This document shows, in pieces, positions 21,704 to 42,275 of a DNA stretch of 50,798 nucleotides. A program made the translations under genes and the position numbers. The notes under the pieces are model-generated. The model was not told the DNA's origin. It did not search any database and worked only from the letters and a program-made list of their open reading frames with translations. Source of the stretch: a virus. Where the stretch lies: positions 1-50,798 of the IMG/VR virus record IMGVR_UViG_3300050821_005831; one strand, 5' to 3'. How positions within the stretch are numbered: the stretch's first letter is position 1; each line of letters opens with the position of its first letter.

Positions 21704-21719
21704 TAGCGCTCCGTTTAGG

Positions 21720-21754
21720 AAAAATGATGGAGGGGTATTATCACCCCTCCATCA
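21720..21754 (-). terminator. intrinsic terminator between queD and queC
   Basis: On the - strand GATGGAGGGG and CCCCTCCATC form a perfect 10-bp stem with an 8-base loop, followed by ATTTTTCC. It would partly or fully separate queD transcription from queC. Confidence 0.85.
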
Positions 21755-21768
21755 AGTCATACTACGCG

Positions 21769-25941: not shown

Positions 25942-25944
25942 GAC

Positions 25945-26073: not shown

Positions 26074-26083
26074 GTTCGCCTCC

Positions 26084-26623
26084 CTATCGCAGCCACACGC
26101 ATTCGTAGTCGTCGCTGACTTCATAGAAAACAAAATCAAGGCTGCCGTAAATTTTACCGGTCACCTTGTGACGCCCGATTGACCAAATTGGTTTGTCGAG
26201 CACCATGTCCCTGTAATCAACGTCAGAGTCCTCGCCCTGGAATATCGCAGTCAGGTCGTAGAGCTGTGTCTCATTGACGCGATATTCCGAAACGTCAATG
26301 GTCGTTCCCTTCTCATTAACCACAACCTTCGGCATATCGGCCTCTTCTTCTTCAACGATCTTGTCGAAATCCTCATCGGTCAGTCCCGTCATCAGCATCT
26401 CACGCTGTGACGCCGATAACTTTGGAAGGGCATCCTGAATTAGGCTTCGTCCTGTCAGCCATTCACGATAGGCGGGGTACTCGGATGCTGTCAACACAAC
26501 ACGTGCTGGCTTTGCATTCTCGTTAACCCACGCCGGTGGCGTAGTCATTATTTCCCAATTGCCGTCCGCCATCAGGCGTTCGGTACGCTTGGGTCCCATT
26601 CCCATTATATCAATTAGTGGCAT
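26084..26623 (-). CDS. acidic protein behind ribozyme 1
   Basis: A 179-residue acidic protein. Residues 65-100 (ALPKLSASQREMLMTGLTDE, DFDKIVEEEE) match a short conserved motif that I know from many phage proteins of unknown function (LPxLxxxEREFLMTGxxxEEW type). The first gene after hammerhead 1; its AGGAGAGAG site lies between the ribozyme and ATG 26623. Confidence 0.65.
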   Translation of the reverse strand: MPLIDIMGMGPKRTERLMADGNWEIMTTPPAWVNENAKPARVVLTASEYPAYREWLTGRSLIQDALPKLSASQREMLMTGLTDEDFDKIVEEEEADMPKVVVNEKGTTIDVSEYRVNETQLYDLTAIFQGEDSDVDYRDMVLDKPIWSIGRHKVTGKIYGSLDFVFYEVSDDYECVWLR

Positions 26624-26640
26624 TGCTCTCTCCTAGGTTT

Positions 26641-26700
26641 GTCGTCATCAGTGCATGTGGTACCACCATCATGCAGACGGGCACGTGTGCCCGTTTCGAC
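26641..26700 (-). ncRNA. hammerhead ribozyme 1 (type II)
   Basis: Core GAAA and CUGAUGA; stem III CGGGCAC/GTGCCCG; stem I TGCATG/CATGCA with an inner TGG/CCA; stem II GTC/GAC. Predicted cut between 26676 and 26675 after GUC. The stop of the upstream gene (TAG 26702-26700) touches its 5' edge. The 26084-26623 gene follows. Confidence 0.88.
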
Positions 26701-26948
26701 TATTGATCTTTTGTGCCCGTATCGAACTCGCGACACAATTTTTTGTACCTCGCAAGGTTCTTTTTGCAATAGGCCTGACTTGCTTTTTCAAGCTCATCCT
26801 CGGAGGGATTTTTTTCTCTTTTCTTTATGAGCTTCATTAGATCTTCGACCTTTGACTCAAGGGCCTCTAGTATGAGCTCCCGATCAGAAGGATTGGCGTT
26901 TAGGAGGTACTCATGTAGGCCTTTTGCTTCGTAGTAAACGTCAGGCAT
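26700..26948 (-). CDS. small charged helical protein
   Basis: An 82-residue protein, nearly all charged helix (RELILEALESKVEDLMKLIK), with no family recognised. Its start overlaps the end of the preceding gene and its TAG stop coincides with the 5' edge of ribozyme 1, so the 5' cleavage product keeps the full reading frame. Confidence 0.6.
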   Translation of the reverse strand: MPDVYYEAKGLHEYLLNANPSDRELILEALESKVEDLMKLIKKREKNPSEDELEKASQAYCKKNLARYKKLCREFDTGTKDQ

Positions 26949-27177
26949 CGCCTTTACCCTCCGCTATACCGCAACGAAACATGCTCAGGGATGCGCGAGC
27001 AATCATACTCGTTGCCTGAGTAATGATTGGATCGTTTTGATCTCGCGCGTTCTTATCAAGGAGATCGCTTAGCGCAATTAAGAACACCCGAATTTCCTCG
27101 AGTGACCATGGCAGATGATTTTTGCGGCGATGCATTGACGCAGCTCGCATGTCGGCCAAATTGGTATCTGTTATCAT
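26941..27177 (-). CDS. small hypothetical protein behind ribozyme 2
   Basis: A 78-residue protein starting MITDTNLADMRAAS at ATG 27177, 8 bases after AGGAG. The longer frame from 27222 would translate the ribozyme core and is rejected. Central segment WSLEEIRVFLIALSDLLDKN is helical. It overlaps the next gene (26700-26948). No family recognised. Confidence 0.6.
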   Translation of the reverse strand: MITDTNLADMRAASMHRRKNHLPWSLEEIRVFLIALSDLLDKNARDQNDPIITQATSMIARASLSMFRCGIAEGKGDA

Positions 27178-27195
27178 GTCTCTCTCCTTTTGGTT

Positions 27196-27256
27196 TGTCG
27201 TCATCAGTGCGTTGATAACCACTCAACGCAGACGGTCCCTTAGGACCGTTTCGACA
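27196..27256 (-). ncRNA. hammerhead ribozyme 2 (type II)
   Basis: The clearest copy. Stem II TGTC/GACA; GAAA; stem III ACGGTCC-TAAG-GGACCGT; GUC; stem I TGCGTTGA/TCAACGCA, 8 perfect pairs; CUGAUGA followed by one extra C. Predicted cut between 27231 and 27230. AGGAGAGAGAC and ATG 27177 follow. Confidence 0.92.
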
Positions 27257-27388
27257 TTTAAATGACAGCTTGCAGGGGTTTCACGGTGTCTCTATGCGTC
27301 ACCGGTGTTGGGTACCGAACCCCGCCTTGTTGCGTTAGCTAGCCCGTTGCTGTCGCGGTTGCCTCGAAAGACCCCACCACCGGAACTC
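27257..27388 (-). other. intergenic region with long-range pairing
   Basis: No gene. On the - strand CCGGTG (27383-27378) can pair with CACCGG (27307-27302), enclosing an 82-base segment with a GGG/CCC arm. It has tRNA-like size, but no T-loop consensus or 5-bp T-stem, so it is not called a tRNA. It is the only unit boundary in the array where more than 100 bases separate gene and ribozyme. Confidence 0.4.
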
Positions 27389-27706
27389 TTATGCTTTTAT
27401 TTTCTTGAGTGTGTTGTTTGCCGAACCTTTAACCAATCGAAGGTTGCGGCCGCCCAGCTTGAGGCATTTAGTCAAAGCCTCGACGCCTTCAGGTCCTATT
27501 CCACGTGCTGCAGCCATCACGGTACAAAATTGCGGGCGACGCGTTTTGCCCTCAAACCAATTGTGTAATGTGTTTGCTGATAGCCCGACCGATGTCTTAG
27601 CAATTTTTGAATTGCTAATTCCAACGCGTGCTTTCGCTTCGCGAAGGTAATCGATCACCGGATCCTTGTCGCGGAACATATAGGTCGTATAAAGTTTGGC
27701 TTTCAT
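27389..27706 (-). CDS. XRE/Cro-like helix-turn-helix protein
   Basis: A 105-residue basic protein. Residues 25-60 (ARVGISNSKIAKTSVGLSAN, TLHNWFEGKTRRP) fit the Cro/CI-type HTH, with the usual WxxGxxxxP after the recognition helix. Probably a DNA-binding regulator, possibly of the array itself, since a palindromic operator lies at its head. Last gene of the unit after ribozyme 3. Confidence 0.7.
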   Translation of the reverse strand: MKAKLYTTYMFRDKDPVIDYLREAKARVGISNSKIAKTSVGLSANTLHNWFEGKTRRPQFCTVMAAARGIGPEGVEALTKCLKLGGRNLRLVKGSANNTLKKIKA

Positions 27707-27707
27707 T

Positions 27708-28040
27708 TTAGCTGCCCTTTGTTGCGTAGTGCTTGACGCCTTTAACTTTGACCATTCGAAGTGCGCCTTGCTCGACGGCCCGGTTCAATGAGTTATAAAT
27801 TGAACCATCTTTGACGCCCGCCGCCCGCAATTTATCTTTAAAGTGGCCGAGGGGCATCAATTGCTTTGCACCAAGCCCTGCCGCGAGTTCCCATGCGGGC
27901 TTGTCACCCGCGCGGATCTTCGTTGCCGTACCTGCTACAATTTTGAAATTTAGGTCTTCAACCTTGTAGGGCTGCAAGACCTCGAGAATGTCGCCGACGT
28001 GTTTCTTGTCGACCACAAACGATATAAACCATTTAGCCAT
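27708..28040 (-). CDS. small protein with winged-helix-like C-terminus
   Basis: A 110-residue protein starting at ATG 28040 (overlap with the upstream stop); the frame to 28100 is rejected. N-terminus MAKWFISFVVDKKHVGDILE resembles a ferredoxin-like half; the C-terminus (DKLRAAGVKDGSIYNSLNRA, VEQGALRMVKVKGVKHY) resembles a winged helix. Same plan as 24696-25037. Possibly a regulator. Confidence 0.65.
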   Translation of the reverse strand: MAKWFISFVVDKKHVGDILEVLQPYKVEDLNFKIVAGTATKIRAGDKPAWELAAGLGAKQLMPLGHFKDKLRAAGVKDGSIYNSLNRAVEQGALRMVKVKGVKHYATKGS

Positions 28041-28180
28041 CAGAGCACCCGTGCAAACAGGTATAAGGCTGCAACGATTACGGCAGCATAAAAACCACAT
28101 AGGGTCAATATTCTACGCCGTGCTAAACGACTTCGCTCAGACTTTCTGAGTTCGTCAAATCGATCATCTATCATACTCAT
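28040..28180 (-). CDS. 46-residue membrane protein
   Basis: Not long enough for routine gene calling but well supported: ATG 28180 follows the ribozyme 3 site GGAGAGAGCT, and the stop overlaps the next start (TGATG). A basic first half (RKSERSRLARRRI) is followed by a single hydrophobic helix (LTLCGFYAAVIVAALYLF). Predicted inner-membrane protein with the N-terminus inside. Confidence 0.7.
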   Translation of the reverse strand: MSMIDDRFDELRKSERSRLARRRILTLCGFYAAVIVAALYLFARVL

Positions 28181-28198
28181 AGCTCTCTCCTTTGGTTT

Positions 28199-28256
28199 GT
28201 CATCGTCAGTGCGTGTGGTACCACCATCACGCAGACGGCCCTTAGGCCGTTTCGAC
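28199..28256 (-). ncRNA. hammerhead ribozyme 3 (type II)
   Basis: Stem II GTC/GAC; GAAA; stem III ACGGCC-TAAG-GGCCGT; GUC; stem I TGCGTG/CACGCA with an A bulge and TGG/CCA; CUGACGA, a change at the one core position that is free to vary. Cut between 28234 and 28233. The upstream gene ends inside its stem III loop. Confidence 0.9.
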
Positions 28257-28955
28257 TCTCATGTCATGAATCTGCACACGCCTAGCGATCTCTTCGATCG
28301 GTGGCAGTGTGCCTGACCCTCTAATAATCCGACCGTCGTCCATCTTGAACGGCTCTGGATTTTGATAACCAATATCGTCGCCAAACACGGCTGCCGACAA
28401 GGCTTTGTAATACTCACCTAAGATGTGGAAATTCATGATGGTAATGGTCGGATCTGACCATTCAATCCATTGCGTCATATCGGGCAGTATCGCGTATCGC
28501 GTGATGGCATCAACGGGGACGATACCAAAATAGCAACAATTGCCCATGCCCTTCAGGCTTGTCTTCCACAACATATCGGGACCAGTAAAATTTGATTCCA
28601 ATCGATCGCGGAACCATTTTGTTGAGCCCCACTTTTCTTTTTTGTTCAATGTGTGGACGTGCGCCCAATCGGGACTCTGACGTGTCGCCTGCTCGAGGAA
28701 GTCTTCGTCAGGTGACAGCTTGAACGGATTGAGCTTGTGTGGATTGATCTCGAGGATCAATCCAGGCTCATCCTTTTTCGCGTTGACGGAGCACCACGCA
28801 TAGTACAGCGAATAGGCTTGCGTCAGGTAAACGGCTTTCGGGTTCGACTCGATCGTATGATCCCAATTGCCTTTCTTGCTAGTACCACGCGGCTTAATTC
28901 CATCGCGCAAGATGCGGTCAAGGAATCGTGAGCTTGTGCCGTGATATATTTTCAT
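28242..28955 (-). CDS. ADP-ribosyltransferase-fold protein
   Basis: A 237-residue protein. The start KIYHGTSSRFLDRILRDGIK and the segment KAVYLTQAYSLYYAW, followed by GLILEINPHKL, follow the H-Y pattern of the ART/KptA-like fold. Phage ARTs often modify host RNA polymerase or ribosomal proteins. A clear catalytic Glu is not assigned, so activity is open. Its TAA stop lies in the stem III loop of ribozyme 3, so the last five codons form part of the ribozyme. Confidence 0.6.
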   Translation of the reverse strand: MKIYHGTSSRFLDRILRDGIKPRGTSKKGNWDHTIESNPKAVYLTQAYSLYYAWCSVNAKKDEPGLILEINPHKLNPFKLSPDEDFLEQATRQSPDWAHVHTLNKKEKWGSTKWFRDRLESNFTGPDMLWKTSLKGMGNCCYFGIVPVDAITRYAILPDMTQWIEWSDPTITIMNFHILGEYYKALSAAVFGDDIGYQNPEPFKMDDGRIIRGSGTLPPIEEIARRVQIHDMRVETA

Positions 28956-28972
28956 GTCTCTCTCCTTGGTTT

Positions 28973-29031
28973 GTCATCATCAGTACCACGATAACCAATC
29001 GTGATAGACGGGGCCTTAGCCCCGTTTCGAC
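28973..29031 (-). ncRNA. hammerhead ribozyme 4 (type II)
   Basis: Stem II GTC/GAC; GAAA; stem III ACGGGGC-TAAG-GCCCCGT; GUC; stem I TATCACGA/TCGTGGTA with one G-T pair; CUGAUGA. Cut between 29007 and 29006. GGAGAGAGAC and ATG 28955 follow. Confidence 0.9.
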
Positions 29032-29237
29032 TATTTTTTTCCGAACCTAAGTTCATTGGAAATTTCGTTGATAACGTCGTCCAACACATCAATGGAATCA
29101 GCACAAAGTTTTCGAACGCAACAGGCATTCTTAAATGATACGATTGACTGCTCCAACAATCCTGCTTCTCGAAGCCGTGCGCCTTCCGTAATGAACAGGT
29201 TGATGAGGTCAAAACTAATTCTTTTAGCATCAACCAT
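29031..29237 (-). CDS. small helical protein
   Basis: A 68-residue protein starting MVDAKRISFDLINLF at ATG 29237, overlapping the previous stop (TGATG). Two Cys residues in NACCVRKLC. It ends with TAG at the very edge of ribozyme 4. No family recognised. Confidence 0.6.
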   Translation of the reverse strand: MVDAKRISFDLINLFITEGARLREAGLLEQSIVSFKNACCVRKLCADSIDVLDDVINEISNELRFGKK

Positions 29238-29506
29238 CACGCATCTCCATCCGCAAAGCAATGAATGCAATAGCAACGACCTTCACCATGGTAGCTCGTA
29301 TCGTCGCCACCATACTCGGTGCCCGTATAGGTCCACTCGTGTTCGCATTCTTCTTCTTCTTCATCAAAATCAATAATATTGCCTTCGCAGTACTGGCATT
29401 CGGCGTCGAAACAGCTGTTGAGTTTGCTGCAGTCCTCACACTTCCAATCAGTGTGCGGCAGATCAACTTCTTCAGGCTGTACACACTCGCCATTATAACG
29501 TGCCAT
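29237..29506 (-). CDS. cysteine-rich zinc-ribbon-like protein
   Basis: An 89-residue very acidic protein with several CxxC knuckles: WKCEDCSKLNSC, ECQYCEG and CYCIHC. The first pair resembles RanBP2-type or rubredoxin-like zinc knuckles. It follows ribozyme 5 with GGAGAGAGAC before ATG 29506. Possibly an acidic protein- or RNA-binding adaptor; function unknown. Confidence 0.65.
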   Translation of the reverse strand: MARYNGECVQPEEVDLPHTDWKCEDCSKLNSCFDAECQYCEGNIIDFDEEEEECEHEWTYTGTEYGGDDTSYHGEGRCYCIHCFADGDA

Positions 29507-29527
29507 GTCTCTCTCCTATGTTGGCTT

Positions 29528-29586
29528 GTCATCATCAGTGCGCCGATAGCCAATCGACACAGACGGGCACGTGTGCCCGTTTCGAC
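29528..29586 (-). ncRNA. hammerhead ribozyme 5 (type II)
   Basis: Stem II GTC/GAC; GAAA; stem III CGGGCAC/GTGCCCG; GUC; stem I TGTGTCGA/TCGGCGCA with two G-T pairs replacing Watson-Crick pairs of other copies; CUGAUGA. Cut between 29562 and 29561. Confidence 0.9.
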
Positions 29587-29816
29587 TATTTGGGTGTGGT
29601 TAACAACGTGTCGCTAATAACTTTGTACACACCTCTGCGGAGATGCGCGTGTGCAACACGTTGCTCCGTTGCAGTTTGGGTAATCCGATTGTATAGCACA
29701 AGATAGGATTTATCCTGAGTAAGCGCGATTATTTGTGAGATGTCGATCTCATCTTTGTCATGTGAATTATACAAGGCGTGCCAAACCGAGTCTACGAATG
29801 TTGAGCCGATCATCAT
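29586..29816 (-). CDS. small hypothetical protein
   Basis: A 76-residue protein starting MMIGSTFVDSVWHALYN at ATG 29816 (ATG 29813 also possible); a TTG at 29822 would add two residues. It ends LLTTPK-stop with TAG touching ribozyme 5. Predicted mixed alpha/beta, no family recognised. It follows the 29819-29998 gene directly. Confidence 0.6.
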   Translation of the reverse strand: MMIGSTFVDSVWHALYNSHDKDEIDISQIIALTQDKSYLVLYNRITQTATEQRVAHAHLRRGVYKVISDTLLTTPK

Positions 29817-29818
29817 GG

Positions 29819-29998
29819 TCAATCCCCGTCAATCGGTTCATCAGCCCAGTAATATGGATCAGTCAGGACGTCGGCCCTGTACCCTTTCATTTTTTCTTTG
29901 TGGCATTTGGGACAGGTGTAGCAAAGAAAAATTGCCCGTGCATCCCATTGCGCTTCCCGCTCGTCACGTGAACATACGTGGTATTTGAGCTCGCTCAT
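29819..29998 (-). CDS. 59-residue zinc-knuckle protein
   Basis: Starts MSELKYHVCSRDEREAQW at ATG 29998, in an ATGA overlap with the upstream gene. Cys residues at CYTCPKCHKEK give a CxxCxxC/H pattern for one metal. Acidic end (DPYYWADEPIDGD). Similar one-zinc-knuckle peptides are frequent among phage early genes. Confidence 0.65.
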   Translation of the reverse strand: MSELKYHVCSRDEREAQWDARAIFLCYTCPKCHKEKMKGYRADVLTDPYYWADEPIDGD

Positions 29999-30216
29999 TG
30001 CCTTAACTCCCTTACTCGCCTATCGAACTCACGTTCGGACGTGTCGTCAAATACGAGGGCGCAGTGCGCTAAGCGACCATGTTCATCGTACCGCGCAGAG
30101 TGGGGAATGTCTTCGGTCCTAATGCGGTGGCAAACGCCTTCTTGATACATCGCGTCTGCAACCACGCCTTCGATCTGCCCGAAGATGGAGCATATTCTAG
30201 TTAAGCTTCTTTTCAT
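29995..30216 (-). CDS. small hypothetical protein behind ribozyme 6
   Basis: A 73-residue protein starting MKRSLTRICSIFGQIEGV at ATG 30216 after GGAGAGAGAC. The longer frame to 30345 translates through the ribozyme and is rejected. Mixed charge, no family. First of three coupled genes. Confidence 0.6.
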   Translation of the reverse strand: MKRSLTRICSIFGQIEGVVADAMYQEGVCHRIRTEDIPHSARYDEHGRLAHCALVFDDTSEREFDRRVRELRQ

Positions 30217-30234
30217 GTCTCTCTCCTTTGGTTT

Positions 30235-30294
30235 GTCATCATCAGTGATGCAGGAACCACCATGCATCAGACGCGCCCTTAGGCGCGTTTCGAC
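30235..30294 (-). ncRNA. hammerhead ribozyme 6 (type II)
   Basis: Stem II GTC/GAC; GAAA; stem III ACGCGCC-TAAG-GGCGCGT; GUC; stem I TGATGCA/TGCATCA, 7 perfect pairs; CUGAUGA. Cut between 30270 and 30269. The upstream gene stops inside the stem III loop. Confidence 0.9.
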
Positions 30295-30860
30295 TTTTTC
30301 TTTGCAGGCGCTTCTACCTTGTAGAGGTAGCTGTTGGATATGCAAATGTTGCGATCTACATAACCATTGCGCTTCTTCTCGTATCGCACCTCACTCTGAT
30401 AGGGCCCTGCTTTCACGATACGCCCCAGCGTATCAGGGATAACCGTGTCCATGACCCAATCCCCATCCTCGAATTGCGGCGGGGGATCTTTTTTCGTATG
30501 TGCAGGCATGACGCAAAAACGACCATCTTGTTCAAAGATGTGGAACGCGTCAGGACGCATTCCAGCTCGTTTGCATATGTTCGCTCTGTGTCGTTCCGCA
30601 TCTTCGCGTGTTTCGTGTTCGAAGTACGGGGAGTGTGGACGACGTGTCGCGGTCTCAGTTTCAGATTTGGCAGGCTTGGCAGTTTTCACCGCCTTGCCTT
30701 CGAATTCCTTGAGCCATCGTTCGAGTTTCCCTTTCGGGATTCCCAACTCCTTGCCCAAGGCTCCCGCTGCCTCAGTACCCGATTCCATAAACGTTCGTTT
30801 GCAACGATCCTTGGGGAACTCTTGCCCCTTGACACGTTTCGGTGGTGAAGGCTTTTTCAC
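30279..30860 (-). CDS. basic protein with HTH-like N-terminus
   Basis: A 193-residue basic protein. Residues 25-52 (TEAAGALGKELGIPKGKLER, WLKEFEG) fit a transposase- or terminase-like HTH; residues 105-185 contain an SH3-like barrel candidate (FEDGDWVMDTVIPDTLGRIV). It overlaps the DUF932-type gene start region by 4 bases and its TAA lies within ribozyme 6. Confidence 0.6.
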   Translation of the reverse strand: MKKPSPPKRVKGQEFPKDRCKRTFMESGTEAAGALGKELGIPKGKLERWLKEFEGKAVKTAKPAKSETETATRRPHSPYFEHETREDAERHRANICKRAGMRPDAFHIFEQDGRFCVMPAHTKKDPPPQFEDGDWVMDTVIPDTLGRIVKAGPYQSEVRYEKKRNGYVDRNICISNSYLYKVEAPAKKKSKRA

Positions 30861-31897
30861 TTCGCAAGCTCCACTGCCATGTCAAAGGCTCGCCGCTTCA
30901 GGTTGGCGTTTTGACCAAACCACGCGGTCCTCAATGCGGCGTCACGCTGCCGACCCAACTCGTGGTCGATAACGTATGTCACCGCATTGACAGCGCCCCA
31001 CAACGTTCCTTTCGCTGAGGGCAGTTGATTACCGGGCGAAAATTCGAGGGCGTTGCGGAAGGCCGACAACACTCGCGGCTCCGTTGGTTCCTCGTTATTC
31101 TTCTTCGCTTCGGCCGCAGCCTTCTTTGGATCGTACTGCATCACGTCGCAGAAGAATTGCTCGACCTGCTTCTCGTTGACCTTCGCCTTCGATAACAGTG
31201 TCGCTTCTTCCTTGAGTTGATTGAAATTGTCGACCGCAAGCTTGAGTGCCGTTTCTGCAACCTTCTTCGTTGCATCATTGAACTCGATAGAATGAGGCAT
31301 ACGAAACGTGCCTTCACCTTTTGCGCTGAGCTTGCGTGTCAGTGTGTTCCAGCACCATGTCCTTGATGCTAGATTTTGGAACACCATCGCACGCCCCTGC
31401 TGATGCGGTTGCATCAACAAGAGATAGCCAACAACTTCATCGTCCTTACCCAGCGAAAACGCTTTGTTGATCTTAGCCAAAGCCCAAATGAATTTGCCTT
31501 GACCAAGCGAGCCCATATGCTCCATTGCCATGTGACCCGACACGACAAACTTCTTGAAGAAGCCCACCGAGTCGTGATTTTGCACAGGCTTCCAATTGAC
31601 GCCCGTGACTGTCAGCATGTGGTCGTCGGTGTCACGAACAAGCGCTCGCTTGTCCTTGATCACCTTGCTGTGCTTGTCCTTGTCGAGGTAGAAAATATCT
31701 CGCTTCGAAACAGTCCAATCAATGTGTGCCGCCTTCAACATTTGTTCGGGCGACATATTATTGTTGACCTGCACACCAAGCCCACCAGACCACGGCGGTG
31801 CTCCCGCATGTGCCATTGTTTCAATGGTACGATTTGGAAGGCTCCGCCTGTTGGCACGAGGCTCACGCTCCGCTACTGCTGGATTTGTTGTCATCAT
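30857..31897 (-). CDS. DUF932-type phage/plasmid protein
   Basis: A 346-residue protein with the pattern of the DUF932 family: LVRDTDDHMLTVTGVNWKPV, FVVSGHMAMEHMGSLGQGK, YLLLMQPHQQGRAMVFQ and RTWCWNTL. Members occur widely in phages and plasmids; their biochemical role is not established. Start ATG 31897 or the following ATG 31894, both after the ribozyme 7 ribosome binding site. Confidence 0.8.
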   Translation of the reverse strand: MMTTNPAVAEREPRANRRSLPNRTIETMAHAGAPPWSGGLGVQVNNNMSPEQMLKAAHIDWTVSKRDIFYLDKDKHSKVIKDKRALVRDTDDHMLTVTGVNWKPVQNHDSVGFFKKFVVSGHMAMEHMGSLGQGKFIWALAKINKAFSLGKDDEVVGYLLLMQPHQQGRAMVFQNLASRTWCWNTLTRKLSAKGEGTFRMPHSIEFNDATKKVAETALKLAVDNFNQLKEEATLLSKAKVNEKQVEQFFCDVMQYDPKKAAAEAKKNNEEPTEPRVLSAFRNALEFSPGNQLPSAKGTLWGAVNAVTYVIDHELGRQRDAALRTAWFGQNANLKRRAFDMAVELAK

Positions 31898-31913
31898 CTC
31901 TCTCCTATTGGTT

Positions 31914-31976
31914 TGCCATCATCAGTACGTTGGTAACCACACAACGCAGACGGCGCTTGATAGCGCCGTTTCGGCA
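31914..31976 (-). ncRNA. hammerhead ribozyme 7 (type II), with covarying stem II
   Basis: Stem II is TGCC/GGCA, where other copies have TGTC/GACA: both strands changed together. GAAA; stem III ACGGCGC/GCGCCGT with loop TATCAA; GUC; stem I TGCGTTG/CAACGTA with one G-T pair; CUGAUGA. Cut between 31949 and 31948. Confidence 0.92.
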
Positions 31977-32135
31977 TTATTTCTGCAGCATTTTTACGTG
32001 GCAATAATCGCACACGATCTTACCGTTGATGCGATTCTCGTTACCGCGCCTGCCTTGGCGACAACAGCCCGGCATTTCGCATTTGTCAGGCAATAGTTGC
32101 CAGACGACGAAAATCAAATGATCAATTAGTCGCAT
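31977..32135 (-). CDS. 52-residue zinc-knuckle protein
   Basis: Starts MRLIDHLIFVVWQLLPDK at ATG 32135 with GGAG 7 bases before. Contains CEMPGCCRQG and VCDYCHVK, enough Cys and His for one zinc ion (HNH-like treble-clef half or ribbon). The stop is directly before ribozyme 7. Function unknown. Confidence 0.65.
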   Translation of the reverse strand: MRLIDHLIFVVWQLLPDKCEMPGCCRQGRRGNENRINGKIVCDYCHVKMLQK

Positions 32136-32146
32136 GATCTGCTCCA

Positions 32147-32443
32147 TCACTCAAACAATCGTTCTGTGCCAACGGACCAACCGAAGGACAGCCATCGATC
32201 GATCGACGGCTCCTTATATGAACATACTTGAACAGAACGAGTTCTTGGAACACCGTCGGCGTGTCTGTCATAAACCAACTTCAAGGCATCGGTTGTTGTT
32301 GCAGGCCAACAGGAGTCATGCCGAAGCATGTCCAAGGGGAACTCGCCGGGGCCAGTGACGTAGTACGCGTAGAACTTTCGTGGACGATCGCTCACATCAT
32401 ATAGATGCTCAGCTCTAAAACGATCCTTTGTCCGTGTCATCAT
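32147..32443 (-). CDS. hypothetical protein behind ribozyme 8
   Basis: A 98-residue protein starting at ATG 32443 (or 32440) after GGAGAGAGAC. Mixed strands and helices (KFYAYYVTGPGEF, LKLVYDRHADGVPRTRSV). No family recognised. It shares the unit with the small zinc-knuckle gene. Confidence 0.6.
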   Translation of the reverse strand: MMTRTKDRFRAEHLYDVSDRPRKFYAYYVTGPGEFPLDMLRHDSCWPATTTDALKLVYDRHADGVPRTRSVQVCSYKEPSIDRWLSFGWSVGTERLFE

Positions 32444-32459
32444 GTCTCTCTCCTTTGGT

Positions 32460-32522
32460 TTGTCATCATCAGTACGAAGGGAACCACCCTTCGCAGACGC
32501 CCTCGAGAGGGCGTTTCGACAA
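32460..32522 (-). ncRNA. hammerhead ribozyme 8 (type II)
   Basis: Stem II TTGTC/GACAA, 5 pairs; GAAA; stem III ACGCCCTC/GAGGGCGT, sequence quite unlike other copies but fully paired; GUC; stem I TGCGAAGG/CCTTCGTA with one G-T pair; CUGAUGA. Cut between 32496 and 32495. Confidence 0.92.
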
Positions 32523-32553
32523 GCCGATGTGGGCGCTGCTCGGCAAACACAGC
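32521..32553. repeat. 33-base hairpin repeat, copy B
   Basis: Nearly the same sequence as 25530-25562 (29 of 33 identical), with inverted ends GCCGA/TCGGC. It lies just before ribozyme 8 on the transcript, and another short hairpin (GGAGGT/ACCTCC) precedes it. Confidence 0.6.
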
Positions 32554-32590
32554 ATTGCTAGGAGGTTCGATCTACCTCCACAGCCCAAAC

Positions 32591-32845
32591 TTAATCTTCG
32601 TGCTCTTCTTCTTCGTATACCGTCATGTCTTCGGCGTTTCCCGTCAAAGCTCCATCGGCATCCTTGACGCCAAACTCATCGGCAATGCGAATACACAACT
32701 CGATCAGTTTTTGACGTTTGGTAAACTCGCTATCGTAACTATCCCCGCCAGGTCTACCAGTGCTCAGCTTGTCGAGCATGTGCTCATAACAATCGCGCAG
32801 ATCAGCATAGGTGTTGTGGAATCGGCAGTAGGACATATTCGTCAT
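32591..32845 (-). CDS. small acidic phage protein (MSYCRFHNT type)
   Basis: An 84-residue protein with the start SYCRFHNTYADLRDCYEHM, a motif I recognise from many phage and prophage small proteins of unknown role. Acidic C-terminus. It follows ribozyme 9 and its site GGAGAGAG before ATG 32845. Confidence 0.7.
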   Translation of the reverse strand: MTNMSYCRFHNTYADLRDCYEHMLDKLSTGRPGGDSYDSEFTKRQKLIELCIRIADEFGVKDADGALTGNAEDMTVYEEEEHED

Positions 32846-32865
32846 GATCTCTCTCCTTTTGATTT

Positions 32866-32923
32866 GTCATCATCAGTACGCAGGTCATCATCCCGCGTAG
32901 ACGGTCCCTTAGGACCGTTCGAC
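32866..32923 (-). ncRNA. hammerhead ribozyme 9, core deletion
   Basis: All three helices are kept (stem II GTC/GAC, stem III CGGTCC-TAAG-GGACCG, stem I TACGCGGG/CCTGCGTA), but the core reads GAA instead of GAAA: one of three A residues is missing. Activity is probably reduced or lost. Expected cut site between 32900 and 32899. Confidence 0.8.
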
Positions 32924-33421
32924 TTAGCCTTCGTTATATCGCGCATCATCCCAAGTTCCGTCTTGCTCGGGCACATGTTCTGCCTCTTGACGCATCCACT
33001 TGTCACGCGCCGCGTCCATTTTTTCAATTGTGGACTTGGACAACGGCTTGCCTTCCCAACGGTGGTAGCTGACGGGTATGTCAATTAGCTCCAATTCCAG
33101 CAACGCTTCCCATTTGCGTTTGATTGAAAACACCGCGTGGTTGTTGGGAATGACGCGATAGCATTCCTGTTCTGCTTCCCAAATGTCGGCGACTTCTTGA
33201 CCTTCGTTGTCAATAATGTCCCGAACACGTTCCTGGTATTGCTTTTGCGTCAAACACTCGAACCATTCACCATCCCGCCAAACGATGAAACGGTAACGCA
33301 TCTCATCAATGGCCTGACGATCCAACACGACTGCAAAGGATTCCACGTCTGTGTTCATATATGGATCGCGAAGCGTGAAGCGTTCGAACTCTTTATAGTA
33401 GTCCAATCGCAATTTCCTCAT
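32924..33421 (-). CDS. acidic hypothetical protein behind ribozyme 10
   Basis: A 165-residue protein starting MRKLRLDYYKEFERF at ATG 33421; the frame to 33496 runs through the ribozyme and is rejected. Rich in Glu, Arg, Trp and Tyr (VWRDGEWFECLTQKQYQERV). No family recognised. TAA stop one base from ribozyme 9. Confidence 0.6.
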   Translation of the reverse strand: MRKLRLDYYKEFERFTLRDPYMNTDVESFAVVLDRQAIDEMRYRFIVWRDGEWFECLTQKQYQERVRDIIDNEGQEVADIWEAEQECYRVIPNNHAVFSIKRKWEALLELELIDIPVSYHRWEGKPLSKSTIEKMDAARDKWMRQEAEHVPEQDGTWDDARYNEG

Positions 33422-33437
33422 GTCTCTCTCCTTTGGT

Positions 33438-33507
33438 TTGTCATCATCAGTACCACGATAACCAATCGTGATAGACGCTGCGCATTTCGCGCGCAACGTT
33501 TCGACAA
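33438..33507 (-). ncRNA. hammerhead ribozyme 10 (type II)
   Basis: Stem II TTGTC/GACAA; GAAA; stem III ACGTTGCGC/GCGCAGCGT, 9 pairs with one T-G; GUC; stem I TATCACGA/TCGTGGTA as in ribozyme 4; CUGAUGA. Cut between 33474 and 33473. Confidence 0.9.
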
Positions 33508-33774
33508 TTATTTTTCTTCCGCGATCAGCTTGTCTACTGCTTCCTTCGCATCACAAAACGCGGCTTGTGATGTTGCATAAGGCCCATACCCAGGACCTTC
33601 TGCAATGCTAATGTACCATCCTTTCGGATTTGGATGGCCCATTGGTTTAACCCACTCATTATCTTTGTGGTAGTCTAACCACGCACCTCTTTCAGCCCAA
33701 AATATTTTGAAATCGCCATGATCACCTTCATGGGACTTCGCATATGGGTCCGCTGTGTCGTCGCGCATTGTCAT
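33508..33774 (-). CDS. small hypothetical protein
   Basis: An 88-residue protein with many aromatic and glycine residues (FKIFWAERGAWLDYH, GWYISIAEGPGYGPYAT) and a helical end (DAKEAVDKLIAEEK). It is coupled to the upstream gene by an overlap at 33771-33774. No family recognised. Confidence 0.6.
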   Translation of the reverse strand: MTMRDDTADPYAKSHEGDHGDFKIFWAERGAWLDYHKDNEWVKPMGHPNPKGWYISIAEGPGYGPYATSQAAFCDAKEAVDKLIAEEK

Positions 33775-33995
33775 TTTAGCTTCTCCACTTTGACCAAATA
33801 GCCGTCGCCCTGTCCTACGTCCCCAAGCACAATTTGCAGTCCGTGAGGCCGGATCAATTTGTCGATCTCTTCCATGATCTCTTCAGGAGTTGAATGCAAC
33901 ATATCGATGTAAGCACCACCCCTTATTTTCTTCGGCAGGTCGTGGTCATTGCCCAAGGGATCGTAGCCTTGAAGATCAACTTCGATAATTTTCAT
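33771..33995 (-). CDS. small hypothetical protein behind ribozyme 11
   Basis: A 74-residue protein starting MKIIEVDLQGYDPLGND at ATG 33995 after GGAGAGAGAT; the frame to 34046 would translate the ribozyme. Likely alpha/beta (TPEEIMEEIDKLIRPHGLQI, VLGDVGQGDGYLVKVEK). No family recognised. Confidence 0.6.
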   Translation of the reverse strand: MKIIEVDLQGYDPLGNDHDLPKKIRGGAYIDMLHSTPEEIMEEIDKLIRPHGLQIVLGDVGQGDGYLVKVEKLK

Positions 33996-34014
33996 ATCTC
34001 TCTCCTTTTGGTTT

Positions 34015-34074
34015 GTCGTCATCAGTGCATGTGGAACCACCATCATGCAGACGGTCCCTTAGGACCGTTTCGAC
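34015..34074 (-). ncRNA. hammerhead ribozyme 11 (type II)
   Basis: Stem II GTC/GAC; GAAA; stem III ACGGTCC-TAAG-GGACCGT; GUC; stem I TGCATG/CATGCA with TGG/CC inside; CUGAUGA followed by extra C. Cut between 34050 and 34049. The upstream gene stops in the stem III loop. Confidence 0.9.
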
Positions 34075-34241
34075 TTTTGCTTTTTTATGCGAGCTCGTTC
34101 TTTTGCAACGCGGCTTTTGTGCAAAAACAAAAACCCACCATCATCTGCCACCAATCGATGCGTGAACCCACGCTTGTACTCGGGATTGATTGCAGGATTT
34201 CGCTCAATGCGGTCATATTTCACAAGGCGTTCCTGTTTCAT
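34059..34241 (-). CDS. 60-residue basic protein
   Basis: Strongly basic, starting MKQERLVKYDRIERNPAI and ending with a Lys/Arg-rich tail whose last codons and TAA stop lie inside ribozyme 11 (stem II, GAAA and stem III loop). Possibly nucleic-acid binding. Overlaps the upstream gene by four bases. Confidence 0.6.
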   Translation of the reverse strand: MKQERLVKYDRIERNPAINPEYKRGFTHRLVADDGGFLFLHKSRVAKERARIKKQKSKRS

Positions 34242-34984
34242 CGCAATGCCTTGTGCTGTGATCGTCCGCCAACCTGTTGGTCGAGGCCGATTCTATTGCC
34301 CGCGGCATAACCATCAGACGCACCCTTGCTGTGCAGGTGCGTTGATAGACTGGTTCTTTTCATTCGCATCCCGCCGACGTTCTTCTCAATGTATTTGGTC
34401 AACGCGTTTTGTGACCGATCATACATTGACGCAAGGGCCGGCAGGTTTGATCCAGTCGTTTCCGATTTGATCTCACCACGCTTCGCCGCTTCAATGCGTT
34501 CCATGATACGCTGGCACAACCTTTTGGTGCAGGCACCACGAAACGCAACGCGATATGGGGACTGTTCCTTGATGGGCAATCCCTTCGCGCCTTCGCGCGC
34601 AAGACGATCGATCGCTTCCAGCAGGTACATAAACATCATCTTTGCAACTTCGATGTTATGCTTCTTGCCAACAAACGAATGAATGTTCTTACTGCCTCGC
34701 GTTGAGCTGTAGAAGTACTCGCAAAAATATAATTTTGCGACCTGCACTGCGAGGGGGCGGCGCCAAGGATTGGACGACGTGATAATTGAATTGTCCACGC
34801 CGATGTCCTTCGTCTCGTCGTCCGCGAGATTGTCAATGTCCAACATTGACAGGTTGTGCTCGACCAACAACGCCTGCGCCTTCTCAGCCGCGGCAGCAGC
34901 CTCATTTTCGTTTGCGTTGTTGCCAGCGAGTGCCAAGAGCTTGCGTACTCGTTCGAGCAATTTGGCTCTTTCACTGTCATTCAT
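34238..34984 (-). CDS. DUF2786-type protein
   Basis: A 248-residue protein with the DUF2786 start (LLERVRKLLALAGNNANENE, AAAAAEKAQALLVEHNLSM), followed by a larger domain including VAKLYFCEYFYS and FVGKKHNIEVAKMMFMYL. This pair of domains is common in phages and prophages; its function is not established. It follows ribozyme 12. Confidence 0.8.
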   Translation of the reverse strand: MNDSERAKLLERVRKLLALAGNNANENEAAAAAEKAQALLVEHNLSMLDIDNLADDETKDIGVDNSIITSSNPWRRPLAVQVAKLYFCEYFYSSTRGSKNIHSFVGKKHNIEVAKMMFMYLLEAIDRLAREGAKGLPIKEQSPYRVAFRGACTKRLCQRIMERIEAAKRGEIKSETTGSNLPALASMYDRSQNALTKYIEKNVGGMRMKRTSLSTHLHSKGASDGYAAGNRIGLDQQVGGRSQHKALR

Positions 34985-35003
34985 GATCTCTCTCCTTATG
35001 GTC

Positions 35004-35063
35004 TGTCATCATCAGTTGCAGGGGACCAATCCTGCAAGACGCCCTTGGTAGGGCGTTTCGACA
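35004..35063 (-). ncRNA. hammerhead ribozyme 12 (type II)
   Basis: Stem II TGTC/GACA; GAAA; stem III ACGCCC/GGGCGT with loop TACCAA; GUC; stem I TTGCAGG/CCTGCAA, a sequence found in no other copy but perfectly paired; CUGAUGA. Cut between 35038 and 35037. Confidence 0.9.
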
Positions 35064-35270
35064 TTAGCCAAACAACAAATCGCTTGTCTGATCTTCGAAT
35101 TCCTTCGGCACTTCCAGCCCGTAATGCCCAACATACGGCGAGTACCCGCGACGGACTGGCTTGATGCCGTTCGACTCGAGCAGCTCTTTCGCTTCTTTGA
35201 ATGAAAAACGACCGCCTTCGTTCGCCTTCTCAACGCTGAACTGTGCCATCTCAATATATTTGCGTGTCAT
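35064..35270 (-). CDS. small hypothetical protein behind ribozyme 13
   Basis: A 68-residue protein starting MTRKYIEMAQFSVEKANE at ATG 35270, with GGAGAGAG upstream; the frame to 35363 runs through the ribozyme. Central segment SFKEAKELLESNGIKPV is helical. No family recognised. Confidence 0.6.
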   Translation of the reverse strand: MTRKYIEMAQFSVEKANEGGRFSFKEAKELLESNGIKPVRRGYSPYVGHYGLEVPKEFEDQTSDLLFG

Positions 35271-35289
35271 TTTCTCTCTCCATTTTGGT

Positions 35290-35358
35290 TTGTCATCATC
35301 AGTACCACGGGGACCACCGCGTGGTAGACGTTGCGCATTCGCGCGCAACGTTTCGACA
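35290..35358 (-). ncRNA. hammerhead ribozyme 13 (type II)
   Basis: Stem II TTGTC/GACAA; GAAA; stem III ACGTTGCGC/GCGCAACGT, 9 perfect pairs; GUC; stem I TACCACG/CGTGGTA; CUGAUGA. Cut between 35327 and 35326. Confidence 0.92.
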
Positions 35359-35359
35359 A

Positions 35360-35686
35360 TCAACGTTTGTATGATCGAAAATAAAATTCTTTTTCAACGA
35401 CAAGTTTGTGGTTGTCGTTTACGAAACCAAAGGCACTGCCAAGTTCGTTGGGCTTGCGGTTGCGTTCGATTTGGTGCAACGTTTTGGTTTGTTTGATGCC
35501 TTCCATTTCGTCATCGTATGTCGCACGAATATGGTCTATCCACATACCCCAGCAATGCCGTTCGGCGTTGCAGGCGTCATCGTAGATTGCGATGACATTG
35601 GTTTTGTCATCAATGATTTGTTTGATGACAAAAACGATTTTATGACCACGAGGCTCCATATTGTCAGGCACGATCAATTTTTTCAT
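35360..35686 (-). CDS. hypothetical protein behind ribozyme 14
   Basis: A 108-residue protein starting MKKLIVPDNMEPRGHKIV at ATG 35686. The upstream ATG of the longer frame is itself part of the ribosome binding site (ATGGAGAG). Alternating strands and helices (IVFVIKQIIDDKTNVIAIYD). No family recognised. Confidence 0.6.
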   Translation of the reverse strand: MKKLIVPDNMEPRGHKIVFVIKQIIDDKTNVIAIYDDACNAERHCWGMWIDHIRATYDDEMEGIKQTKTLHQIERNRKPNELGSAFGFVNDNHKLVVEKEFYFRSYKR

Positions 35687-35704
35687 CAGACTCTCCATTT
35701 TGGC

Positions 35705-35773
35705 TTGTCATCATCAGCACGTTGAGAGCCACTCAACGTAGACATTGCGCATTGGCGCGCAACGTTTCGACAA
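35705..35773 (-). ncRNA. hammerhead ribozyme 14 (type II)
   Basis: Stem II TTGTC/GACAA; GAAA; stem III ACGTTGCGC/GCGCAATGT with one G-T; triplet GUC; stem I TACGTTGA/TCAACGTG with a T-G closing pair; CUGAUGA. Cut between 35741 and 35740. Confidence 0.9.
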
Positions 35774-35774
35774 T

Positions 35775-36212
35775 TCAAGGCAAACGTTCGTCGTCGTTTG
35801 CATATTCGGTCGTATTGGGAACTTCCATTGGGTGTATCACAATCGATACAGCGCCAGGCATATCGCCATCAACGAAAAAACCATTTTCGTCGCGCGGCAA
35901 CAAATCAGCGGACCAGGCTTGTTCGTTGCGATACCCTTCATCATCGTGCCACGATTTTAGAACGTGGACGGGAACGTTGAGATCGATTTGATCATTCGGC
36001 CACCATTTTGAATTGGTGAGCAAGTCGAGCAAATCGCGTGCAGTCATGGGTGCTTTCGATGTAGTGGCCCCTAATCGTGACGGGCCTGCATCCAAAAGCG
36101 TTGCAATCGTTCGTGTGATGGTGTTAACGAGTTCATCGTTATCCAGTGCGTTGGCATCAACGGCACCAAGCATGTTGATCACATGAGATCGAATTGCAGG
36201 TATGTTTGACAT
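35775..36212 (-). CDS. acidic hypothetical protein behind ribozyme 15
   Basis: A 145-residue acidic protein starting MSNIPAIRSHVINML at ATG 36212, after GGAGAG; the frame to 36284 crosses the ribozyme. The C-terminal half contains MTARDLLDLLTNSKW and DLNVPVHVLKSWHDD, FFVDGDMPGAVSIVIHP, a pattern I associate with small phage proteins of unknown function. Confidence 0.6.
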   Translation of the reverse strand: MSNIPAIRSHVINMLGAVDANALDNDELVNTITRTIATLLDAGPSRLGATTSKAPMTARDLLDLLTNSKWWPNDQIDLNVPVHVLKSWHDDEGYRNEQAWSADLLPRDENGFFVDGDMPGAVSIVIHPMEVPNTTEYANDDERLP

Positions 36213-36232
36213 TTCAGACTCTCCATTTTGGC

Positions 36233-36301
36233 TTGTCATCATCAGTGCGTGAGAAGCCATCATCACGCAGACGTCGCGCAACATGCGCGACGTTTCGACA
36301 A
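36233..36301 (-). ncRNA. hammerhead ribozyme 15 (type II)
   Basis: Stem II TTGTC/GACAA; GAAA; stem III ACGTCGCGC/GCGCGACGT, 9 perfect pairs with loop ATGTT; GUC; stem I TGCGTGA/TCACGCA; CUGAUGA. Cut between 36270 and 36269. Confidence 0.92.
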
Positions 36302-36303
36302 AA

Positions 36304-36528
36304 TCAATCAGCTTCGCAAGGTTGGGCCATAGTACCGAGCTCCCAGCCTTCGGCCCTTTCGATTATTTCAAAATCAAAGGGGCCTTTATAGCCAGCCCCT
36401 ATCAAGTACCTTCGAAAAATTTTCGAGGCACCATTCACAGTGCAAGCCAAGCCGAGTTCATCGTCATATAGAAAAACAGGCTTGTAGCCTCGGCCCAGTT
36501 GAAATTTTCGCATTGATGGGCTTTTCAT
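36304..36528 (-). CDS. first gene of the ribozyme array
   Basis: A 74-residue protein starting MKSPSMRKFQLGRGYKPV at ATG 36528 with GGAGAGCACGAA upstream; the frame from 36558 begins before that site. Contains VFLYDDELGLACTVNGAS. No family recognised. It is the only array gene separated from its ribozyme by a promoter and operator. Confidence 0.6.
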   Translation of the reverse strand: MKSPSMRKFQLGRGYKPVFLYDDELGLACTVNGASKIFRRYLIGAGYKGPFDFEIIERAEGWELGTMAQPCEAD

Positions 36529-36558
36529 TTCGTGCTCTCCATTTTTTAGGCATACCAC

Positions 36559-36599
36559 CCTTGTACCAAATTATACAAGGGTGGCGCCCGAGCTGTCAT
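36559..36599 (-). promoter_or_regulatory. promoter with palindromic operator at the head of the array
   Basis: On the - strand ATGACA (36599-36594) and TATAAT (36575-36570) are separated by 18 bases, a good sigma70-type promoter. An inverted repeat CCACCCTTGTA/TACAAGGGTGG surrounds the -10, as expected for a repressor site. The -35 overlaps the 3' part of ribozyme 16. Confidence 0.65.
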
Positions 36600-36663
36600 C
36601 ATCAGATTGCGGTTGCTCAAATCGCAATGAGGGCGCACGCATTCACTGCGTGGCCCTTTCGAT
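36595..36663 (-). ncRNA. hammerhead ribozyme 16, divergent copy
   Basis: GAAA; stem III AGGGC/GCCCT extended by CACGC/GCGTG with one bulge; triplet CUC; stem I ATTGCG/CGCAAT; CUGAUGA. Stem II is weak (only two pairs, ATC against GAC). Predicted cut between 36629 and 36628. It has no gene-proximal ribosome binding site directly behind it. Confidence 0.7.
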
Positions 36664-36682
36664 TTAATTAGGAGAGGAGAGA

Positions 36683-37063
36683 ATGTTTTTGATGCGAGCA
36701 TTCGTCGCGCAAATTGCAAATGTTGTGAAGCGTTGCGTAGCACGCGTATGTGATACGGGAATCACGTTTTGCAAACAATTGTTGGCGCGAAGTGTGCGTC
36801 AACGTGGTGCGCAATTAGACTTGGCTTTAATCGATCACGGCAACGATGTATTGACCATCGTTGTAGGTGCAATGCATCAACGAACGGCGTTAGCATTGAA
36901 CACGTTAAAAACGTCGCGCAAATTTTGTTGGTTTTATTTTGTCGCAATGATTGTGCGTGAAGCACATTGCGCGAGTGATCGAAACGCATGGCATGCAAAA
37001 CGGGGTTCAGTTGCGCATTGGCCGGCCACGAGGGGCATACAACGTTCGATGTTATGTAAATGA
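36683..37063 (+). CDS. 126-residue basic protein on the opposite strand
   Basis: A rightward gene with the strong site GGAGAGGAGAGA before ATG 36683. The protein is basic, Cys-, Ala- and Val-rich (QIANVVKRCVARVCDTG). The frame is isolated among leftward genes and lies antisense to any leader entering the array from the right. Base composition shows many short GCGCAA and TTGCG words, unlike its neighbours. No family recognised; it may be real or a fortuitous frame. Confidence 0.45.
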   Translation: MFLMRAFVAQIANVVKRCVARVCDTGITFCKQLLARSVRQRGAQLDLALIDHGNDVLTIVVGAMHQRTALALNTLKTSRKFCWFYFVAMIVREAHCASDRNAWHAKRGSVAHWPATRGIQRSMLCK

Positions 37064-37351
37064 ACATAACGGGGGCTGAACGTCGCGCAATGCGGGTGAA
37101 CATAATTTTCGGCGCGTTTCACAACGTGGCCGAAACACCGTTTTCGCATGAGGGGCACTACCGACTGTATGTGAGTTCCAAGTCACGCAGTTTCGGTCGA
37201 TCCCTGACACAATAATATCATAATGGTATAGGAACGCAAGCCTTCTTTTTACCATGCCAATACAATGGTATAGTTGGGACCTACTGTAAATAGAGGGCTT
37301 TTGCTATATAGAGGAAACATATCAACAGTACAGAATTTTCCCTAGACTTTG
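37064..37351. promoter_or_regulatory. control region with operator and leftward promoter
   Basis: No gene is convincing here. It contains an inverted repeat TACCAT-9 bases-ATGGTA (37250-37270), a second half-site ATGGTA at 37224-37229, and on the - strand TTGACA (37355-37350), 17 bases, TGTACT (37332-37327), a plausible sigma70 promoter directed into the array. AT-rich stretches surround these sites. Confidence 0.5.
37250..37270. promoter_or_regulatory. palindromic operator-like site, second copy
   Basis: TACCAT and ATGGTA arms 9 bases apart, matching the site at 43113-43132. Another ATGGTA half-site lies about 40 bases to the left within AATGGTATAG, a 10-base direct repeat shared with this site. 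Confidence 0.5.
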
Positions 37352-42272: not shown

Positions 42273-42275
42273 TTC

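Follow-up and report, generated by a model that had tools for sequence, protein, structure and literature searches.

The small genes of the virus record analysed here (the window, 50,798 bases, the whole record) are interspersed with 16 repeats on the minus strand, between positions 26,633 and 36,665. Judged by their sequence, all 16 repeats are type II hammerhead ribozymes, and it is very probable that they cleave themselves and thereby split a long transcript into 16 units. The ribozyme family is already known; what is new is the number of copies, the regularity with which they are placed, in relatives as in other phages, and the largely separate behavior of stems I and III as modules.

Type II hammerhead ribozymes in one gene block

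A previous sequence-only reading of this DNA had counted 16 copies, and sequence inspection gave the same number (Table 1). The Rfam covariance model RF02276 was found to detect 15 of them with a best E-value of 1.7e-7, 12 above its 37-bit cut-off and three (copies 5, 10 and 14) below it at 34.9–36.6 bits. Copy 16 was not found with RF02276 and was matched only by R1, a covariance model built from the window's own copies, copy 16 included. RF00163 showed no match in the window, and none in any control genome either. A three-part pattern occurs 13 times in the window, against 0.01 expected by chance. Stems I and III are closed by loops and stem II is open, with at least 2 bp in 16 of 16 copies, which is the type II layout, and the cleavage triplet fits NUH in every copy (GUC in 15, CUC in one). 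RNA fold prediction on four stretches, with a program that ignores pseudoknots, returned the hammerhead stems for copies 2 and 7 but not for copies 9 and 16 (region folded for the latter, 36540–36668). All copies are oriented as the genes. Self-cleavage of the copies is inferred.

The core bases had been described as hardly varying. CUGANGA and GAAA are intact in 15 of the 16 copies; variation is seen in copy 9 (GAA), in copy 3 (CUGACGA), in the CUC site of copy 16, and in the one extra base found between CUGAUGA/CUGACGA and stem II in 16 of 16 window copies and, by our reading, in 65 of 68 copies overall. The extra base was not treated as a defining trait of the family. The frequency of this extra base outside the window is biased, the other records having been collected with a pattern that requires it. 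A pattern without the extra base was found in at least 120 stretches of viral contigs, so that hammerheads with and without it are both common. Copy 9, with one core A missing, is probably impaired, dead or dying, or else carries a sequencing error.

For copy 7, the range previously reported, 31914–31976, is right and covers most of the element. Its stem II was confirmed as GCC before GAAA and GGC after CUGAUGA, with facing ends 55 bases apart; 14 of the other 15 copies have GUC/GAC, as had been stated for the standard copies, and copy 16 has AUC/GAC. The cut position in copy 7 is presumably 3' of GUC, following the established hammerhead rule.

Intrinsic terminators, sought as a G+C-rich hairpin with a T run after it on the coding strand, were considered for the same region and rejected: 16 terminator-like sites were counted versus 15.1 in shuffles, and the only two that overlap ribozymes (copies 4 and 6) lie antisense to the genes, on the plus strand.

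Table 1. Ribozyme copies, parts of copy 7 and the gene block, in window coordinates
Feature	Position	Strand	Remarks
Gene block, 26 small genes	26084..36528	-	own gene calls
Copy 1	26633..26702	-	RF02276 37.5 bits; R1 75.5 bits; pseudoknot only 3 bp; precedes gene 26084-26623
Copy 2	27189..27257	-	RF02276 50.4 bits; folds as hammerhead stems, z -4.26
Copy 3	28191..28258	-	RF02276 39.9 bits; core CUGACGA; upstream stop ends 17 nt inside
Copy 4	28965..29033	-	RF02276 45.5 bits
Copy 5	29520..29588	-	RF02276 36.6 bits, just below cut-off; R1 79.5 bits; pseudoknot UUGGCU/AGCCAA
Copy 6	30227..30296	-	RF02276 45.8 bits; upstream stop ends 18 nt inside
Copy 7	31907..31977	-	RF02276 48.3 bits; R1 79.0 bits; folds as hammerhead stems, z -3.0
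Copy 7, stem II 5' strand GCC	31973..31975	-	counted from sequence
Copy 7, stem III hairpin, 7 bp	31951..31968	-	
Copy 7, predicted cleavage site GUC^U	31948..31951	-	cut between 31949 and 31948; hammerhead rule on sequence
Copy 7, stem I hairpin	31926..31948	-	
Copy 7, pseudoknot, loop I strand UGGUU	31935..31939	-	covariation over copies
Copy 7, additional core U after CUGAUGA, before stem II	31918..31918	-	
Copy 7, stem II 3' strand GGC	31915..31917	-	counted from sequence
Copy 7, pseudoknot, tail strand AACCA	31909..31913	-	covariation over copies
Copy 8	32454..32522	-	RF02276 49.0 bits
Copy 9	32858..32925	-	RF02276 41.1 bits; core GAA, not GAAA; pseudoknot UGAU/AUCA kept; predicted fold without stem II
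Copy 10	33432..33507	-	RF02276 36.0 bits, just below cut-off; R1 79.5 bits
Copy 11	34007..34076	-	RF02276 44.8 bits; upstream stop ends 18 nt inside
Copy 12	34997..35064	-	RF02276 50.2 bits; pseudoknot UGGUC/GACCA
Copy 13	35284..35359	-	RF02276 45.7 bits
Copy 14	35699..35773	-	RF02276 34.9 bits; R1 75.3 bits; pseudoknot UGGCU/AGCCA
Copy 15	36227..36301	-	RF02276 37.6 bits; pseudoknot UGGCUU/AAGCCA
Copy 16	36587..36665	-	divergent copy heading the array; CUC as cleavage triplet; stem III longer; pseudoknot UUUGAGC/GCUCGGG; R1 48.2 bits

Covariation of the stems

Stem I was found in 14 distinct arm pairs (7+7 nt) and stem III in 12 (6+6 nt), exceeding the at least eight and at least nine sequences noted in the sequence-only reading, whose four stem I examples are all present. 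Its description of these arms as all paired or using G-U was slightly overstated: in the four-helix structure, 92.4% of the 397 base-pair cells of the 16 copies (plain MAFFT alignment) are standard, compared with 70.9% after shuffling and 25–43% when the helices were slid. Change on both sides was observed at 18 of the 25 model pairs.

The same reading had regarded the three helices as proven, which is too strong, and had proposed aligning the copies for an R-scape-type covariation test. In such a test with a tree-based null, stems I and III covary significantly, and stem II, which changes in a single event in the window, does not. The null was our own R-scape-like version (Fitch reconstruction, G-test with APC), which gives approximate E-values, and a gap in one row of the 16-copy alignment was corrected by hand beforehand. 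Six of 3403 column pairs reached E<0.05, five of them in the model (three in stem I, two in stem III) and the sixth (columns 19–31) outside the model and within the stem III region. The stem II change gave E=39.9 over all pairs and 0.29 over the 25 model pairs.

A larger set was obtained from 81 R1 matches, other records included, of which 13 duplicates from the overlapping loci L001, L004 and L010 were removed to leave 68 copies from 20 records. In this alignment the model placed the copies according to their stems, which biases stem counts in that direction; the pseudoknot described below is not part of the model. The 68 rows include two weak matches with no clear extra base; L028:3714 has no GAAA. 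Significance was reached by nine of 2278 pairs, eight of which are model pairs of stems I and III. The middle pair of stem II is U-A in 64 copies, C-G in three and G-C in one, with none broken (four double changes); its E-value is 3 over all pairs and would be about 0.0013 had this one pair been named beforehand (3/2278), so the stem II covariation over the 68 copies is suggestive only.

In stems I and III of the 68 copies, G-U pairs read on the minus strand outnumber A-C 49 to 7; over all helices the counts are 59 versus 17, and in the window 12 versus 3. This excess suggests the minus-strand RNA as the relevant form. Thus, the earlier proposal of selection on RNA structure is well supported by the covariation of stems I and III, the G-U excess and the known ribozyme fold. 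Identical stems were observed to recur among copies, meaning that many changes are swaps of whole hairpins rather than point-by-point compensation, and covariation of hairpins could by itself stem from copying of palindromes at the DNA level.

A pseudoknot between loop I and the tail

A fourth helix, absent from the sequence-only reading, pairs loop I with the tail just 5' of the Shine-Dalgarno sequence. It reads UGGUU/AACCA in seven copies (2, 4, 6, 7, 8, 10 and 11), UGGU/ACCA in copies 3 and 13, and UGGCU/AGCCA in copies 5, 14 and 15, and comprises at least 4 bp in all copies except copy 1. The ninth significant pair over the 68 copies (columns 40–64) joins loop I and the tail and lies outside the covariance model. 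Each copy's own loop I and tail pair at four or more of five positions in 58 of the 68 copies, versus a mean of 38.2 and a maximum of 46 with permuted tails, and at all five positions in 42 copies, versus a mean of 14.8 and a maximum of 24. The pseudoknot and stem II pair bases outside any one hairpin, whereas whole hairpins get swapped; the pseudoknot is therefore the most telling helix and the best argument for the ribozyme fold. A pseudoknot of loop I with the tail is described for the majority of type II members in the text of PMC3088659.

Gene junctions of the block

By our own gene calls, every non-overlapping gene junction of the block contains a ribozyme. Of the 26 genes, 16 have a ribozyme ahead of the start; in the remaining 10, the start is -8 to +1 nt from the preceding stop codon, with -4 in seven cases. 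For genes without a ribozyme, the search for a start began 14 nt ahead of the preceding stop and the earliest start codon was used, a rule that favors overlaps; four of these 10 genes start with GTG or TTG, and longer or later starts exist at 28040/27708 and 29586. Three plus-strand ORFs (32134–32358, 32405–33088 and 33137–33580) and an overlapping ORF (28952–29230) were left out of the block.

The usual order at a junction is stop codon, ribozyme, Shine-Dalgarno sequence and ATG. The end of the upstream stop lies within -3 to +2 nt of the ribozyme edge at 10 of 15 junctions and 17–18 nt inside the ribozyme at three; at the remaining two it precedes the ribozyme by 68 and 131 nt. The ATG follows the ribozyme by 9–14 nt in 15 of 16 copies and by 58 nt in copy 16. 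With the block counted from 26,084 to 36,665, ribozymes make up 1,076 of the 1,502 noncoding bases. Such compact placement could be mere genome economy.

Among 10 array proteins searched in Pfam, eight matched no family, and of 10 searched in PHROGs six were unmatched and four matched families of unknown function. Promoter-like sites are no more frequent in the region than expected by chance (15 versus 14.2). The best one in the scanned range 25900–39300 is ATGACA-18-TATAAT at 36570–36599, with 11 of 12 matches; it overlaps the 3' end of copy 16, and its -10 element shares bases with an 11-bp inverted repeat that could be an operator. The noncoding spacers 32523–32590 and 27258–27388 looked tRNA-like by eye (T-arm-like) and were rejected, with ARAGORN reporting no tRNA and folding z-scores of -1.3 to 1.2 versus shuffles.

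Ribozyme arrays in related and other phages

Three virus records encode a protein with 44–45% amino-acid identity to the DNA polymerase of the window phage over nearly its full length. In these relatives, R1 detects 12, 10 and 8 copies within the stretches retrieved, and RF02276 detects 11, 10 and 7 over the whole records. In the four phages together, 42 of 46 ribozymes lie 5–18 nt before the chosen start; in the other four the chosen start is more than 18 nt away, with an earlier ATG visible in three (L025:3808, L026:3310 and L027:6161-6227). The first ribozyme of the relatives' arrays (L025:3808-3895, L026:3310-3402 and L027:7696-7790) has a longer stem III region with GTAATG.

A DUF932 gene follows a ribozyme in the window phage and in all three relatives. 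Among the best 80 of 219 loci with DUF932 homologues, five have an R1 match (L128–L132, the first five listed): L128, L130 and L131 correspond to the three relatives described above, five copies occur in L132, and the single match in L129 (34.7 bits) is doubtful, with no RF02276 match at E≤0.1. L024, the only DUF932 relative from an initial protein search, gave no RF02276 match at the cut-off.

Other phage records contain up to eight copies. Three of these, with 8, 7 and 7 copies, show no homologue of the window polymerase; they are possibly fragments. Nine loci were picked by hand for multiple hits, with the core fixed by pattern; they come from eight records, one of them the DUF932 relative L132, and give 35 rows and 33 unique ribozymes, five from L132. 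At these loci, an upstream stop was found within -6 to +8 nt at 28 of the 33 unique ribozymes, compared with 156 of 3000 random positions, and a start within 30 nt at 26 of 33. Of the 65 records examined completely or partly with two different models (the window plus 19, 33 and 12, the 33 loci being drawn from the 80 listed of 116 stretches and the 12 from the 80 listed of at least 120), the window, at 16 copies, has the most.

Edwardsiella phage ZHS, the nearest named phage by DNA polymerase (33.7% identity), gave no R1 match; its locus (L208) has a similar order of replication genes and few small genes where the ribozyme block would lie. When copies 2 and 7 were compared with named phages by short blastn, only partial matches with E-values of 0.5 or worse were returned, and 3 kb around one of these, in Pseudomonas phage Peetri, contain neither an Rfam hammerhead nor an R1 match. 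Phage PaP3, named in the literature for a variant hammerhead, served as a positive control and showed no Rfam hammerhead at E≤0.05 and no R1 match, indicating that the Rfam and R1 searches miss divergent hammerheads.

Exchange of stems between copies

Within each genome, stems I and III largely reassort as independent modules. In the window, pairwise identities of stem I and of stem III are uncorrelated (r=0.03): copies 4 and 10 share an identical stem I but not stem III, and copies 2, 9 and 11 share an identical stem III but not stem I. In the relatives the correlation is weak (r 0.13–0.30), and, contrary to pure reassortment, L025 has two pairs of copies identical in both stems. At the DUF932 junction, L026 and L027 share 89% identity in the protein but just 56% and 64% in the stem arms, which suggests faster turnover of the stems than of the genes. 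Stem I showed no clear signal of traveling with the downstream gene between these two genomes, with identities of 0.38–0.75 at six matched junctions versus an all-pair mean of 0.50. Over the 46 copies of the four genomes, copies are nearer to those of their own genome than to those of relatives, the within-minus-between difference being 0.09 for stem III (0 of 1000 permutations) and 0.038 for stem I (11 of 1000).

Other genes of the record

Pfam searches with 40 window proteins recognized replication and nucleotide-modification genes and no virion gene, which indicates that the record is probably a fragment of a larger phage. Genes resembling those of 7-deazaguanine synthesis (GTP cyclohydrolase I, QueC, two QueD-like PTPS and a radical SAM protein) lie at 18841–22158 and 41571–44065, and their presence suggests modified DNA bases; an intein bearing an HNH endonuclease domain splits the GTP cyclohydrolase I gene (18841–20178). 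A GcrA-like cell-cycle regulator (4239–4826) suggests an alphaproteobacterial host. This gene and a NusG-like transcription factor gene (46067–46558) were searched for in the same four relatives, and each was found in three; for the NusG-like gene, the fourth is a 34-kb record.

Proposed mechanism and alternative explanations

The 26-gene block is probably transcribed as one or a few long transcripts, whose production the NusG-like protein could, as a guess, assist. In the minus-strand RNA, stems I and III would form hairpins, stem II would close the junction, and the loop I–tail pseudoknot would hold the active fold. Located between stems III and I, the cut would fall 3' of GUC, or of CUC in copy 16, and would take place as each ribozyme emerges, giving 16 units of one to three genes each; 15 would be bounded by ribozymes on both sides, and the last would be open at its 3' end. 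Hammerhead cleavage leaves a 5'-OH and a 2',3'-cyclic phosphate. Each unit would begin with the 5'-OH and the stem I hairpin, followed in the units of copies 1–15 by the Shine-Dalgarno sequence and the ATG 9–14 nt on, and the 15 bounded units would end in the stem III hairpin with the cyclic phosphate. The likely benefit would be separate, protected mRNAs with uniform 5' leaders, with a presumed gain in stability or translation. Three tandem arrays self-cleave in vitro, that of A. tumefaciens also in E. coli, and message processing was already proposed for smaller prophage clusters (Perreault 2011), according to the text of PMC3088659.

An extension of this mechanism, with translation gating the ribozymes and the ribozymes acting as exchangeable joints, is considered rather doubtful. 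Thirteen of 15 junctions have the upstream stop at the ribozyme edge or 17–18 nt inside it, where a ribosome ending translation would cover the 5' strands; since the pseudoknot strand lies just before the Shine-Dalgarno sequence, an initiating ribosome would cover the 3' strands. Cutting would then report translation of the neighboring genes, and stems III and I reassort as if recombination at the conserved core joined any upstream to any downstream gene.

Three other readings differ in what the repeats are for. That they act as DNA-level hairpins in recombination, replication or protein binding, or are kept by templated palindrome correction, with an incidental RNA fold, is scarcely credible. 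A DNA process would be expected to swap whole hairpins, as observed for stems I and III, and covariation within hairpins fits DNA and RNA equally; however, the pseudoknot covariation links bases outside any hairpin, the stem II double change spans 55 nt, G-U exceeds A-C by 49 to 7 in stems I and III, all 16 copies share the gene orientation, and the conserved core is that of a ribozyme. It is also quite improbable that the copies are ribozyme-like 5' leaders that no longer cut and act on translation or mRNA stability. The pseudoknot strand a few bases from the Shine-Dalgarno sequence, the damaged core of copy 9 and the extra core base in every copy would suit such leaders, which would nevertheless not need the GAAA and CUGANGA intact in 15 of 16 copies or the NUH triplet kept in all 16.

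Selfish or neutral repeats spreading among gene junctions, useless to the phage, would account for the likeness of copies within a genome (none of 1000 permutations for stem III, 11 for stem I), for the two copy pairs of L025 identical in both stems and for the match in only five of the best 80 of the 219 DUF932-homologue loci. In related as well as other phages, most junctions show a tight fit to stop codon and Shine-Dalgarno sequence, and core and pseudoknot are retained despite stem turnover; both points argue against such spread, and this reading is highly improbable. The processing of a long transcript by self-cleavage is the reading preferred here.

Comparison with known systems

The extra A of the chrysanthemum chlorotic mottle viroid hammerhead reportedly sits between A9 and stem II. 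The phage copies share an extra core nucleotide with this plus-strand ribozyme, which differs in belonging to a viroid and in that its extra nucleotide is an A, as a passage of PMC3705267 describes. The series of natural variants (14 stem I types, several pseudoknot types and the extra core base) can serve structure-function studies and the design of insulated multi-gene constructs. In RiboJ-type insulators, engineered from a plant satellite RNA ribozyme, a hammerhead upstream of the ribosome binding site leaves the trimmed 5' leader with a uniform, hairpin-first end. The phage copies would work alike; the insulators are engineered and no relative of them. The start-associated sequences of Cluster K mycobacteriophages are said to be a conserved element just before many small genes, short and Shine-Dalgarno-like, with no ribozyme core. 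They are named as a comparable phage gene-start element on the strength of part of PMC3203893. Theta ribozymes of gut phages are also phage self-cleaving RNAs and differ in their HDV-like fold and in tRNA-based recoding, going by part of PMC10879173.

What do hammerheads do in prokaryotes? This is described as an open question, with a persistent link to phages and hammerheads flanking small ORFs, in part of PMC6155905. The array reported here and the like arrays in relatives and other phages make mRNA processing the leading answer. A phage array of such size was not found in titles and the beginnings of abstracts, mostly outside subscription journals and without supplements. Compared with the published type II hammerheads (RF02276 and the text of PMC3088659), the window copies have the same core, stem topology, pseudoknot and phage or prophage setting, and the published clusters likewise flank single genes or short gene blocks. 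Relative to the clusters in that text, such as a triple one (figures and supplements lie outside the comparison), the window differs in having 16 copies in one block, a ribozyme wedged between stop codon and Shine-Dalgarno sequence at most junctions, and an extra core base in all 16.
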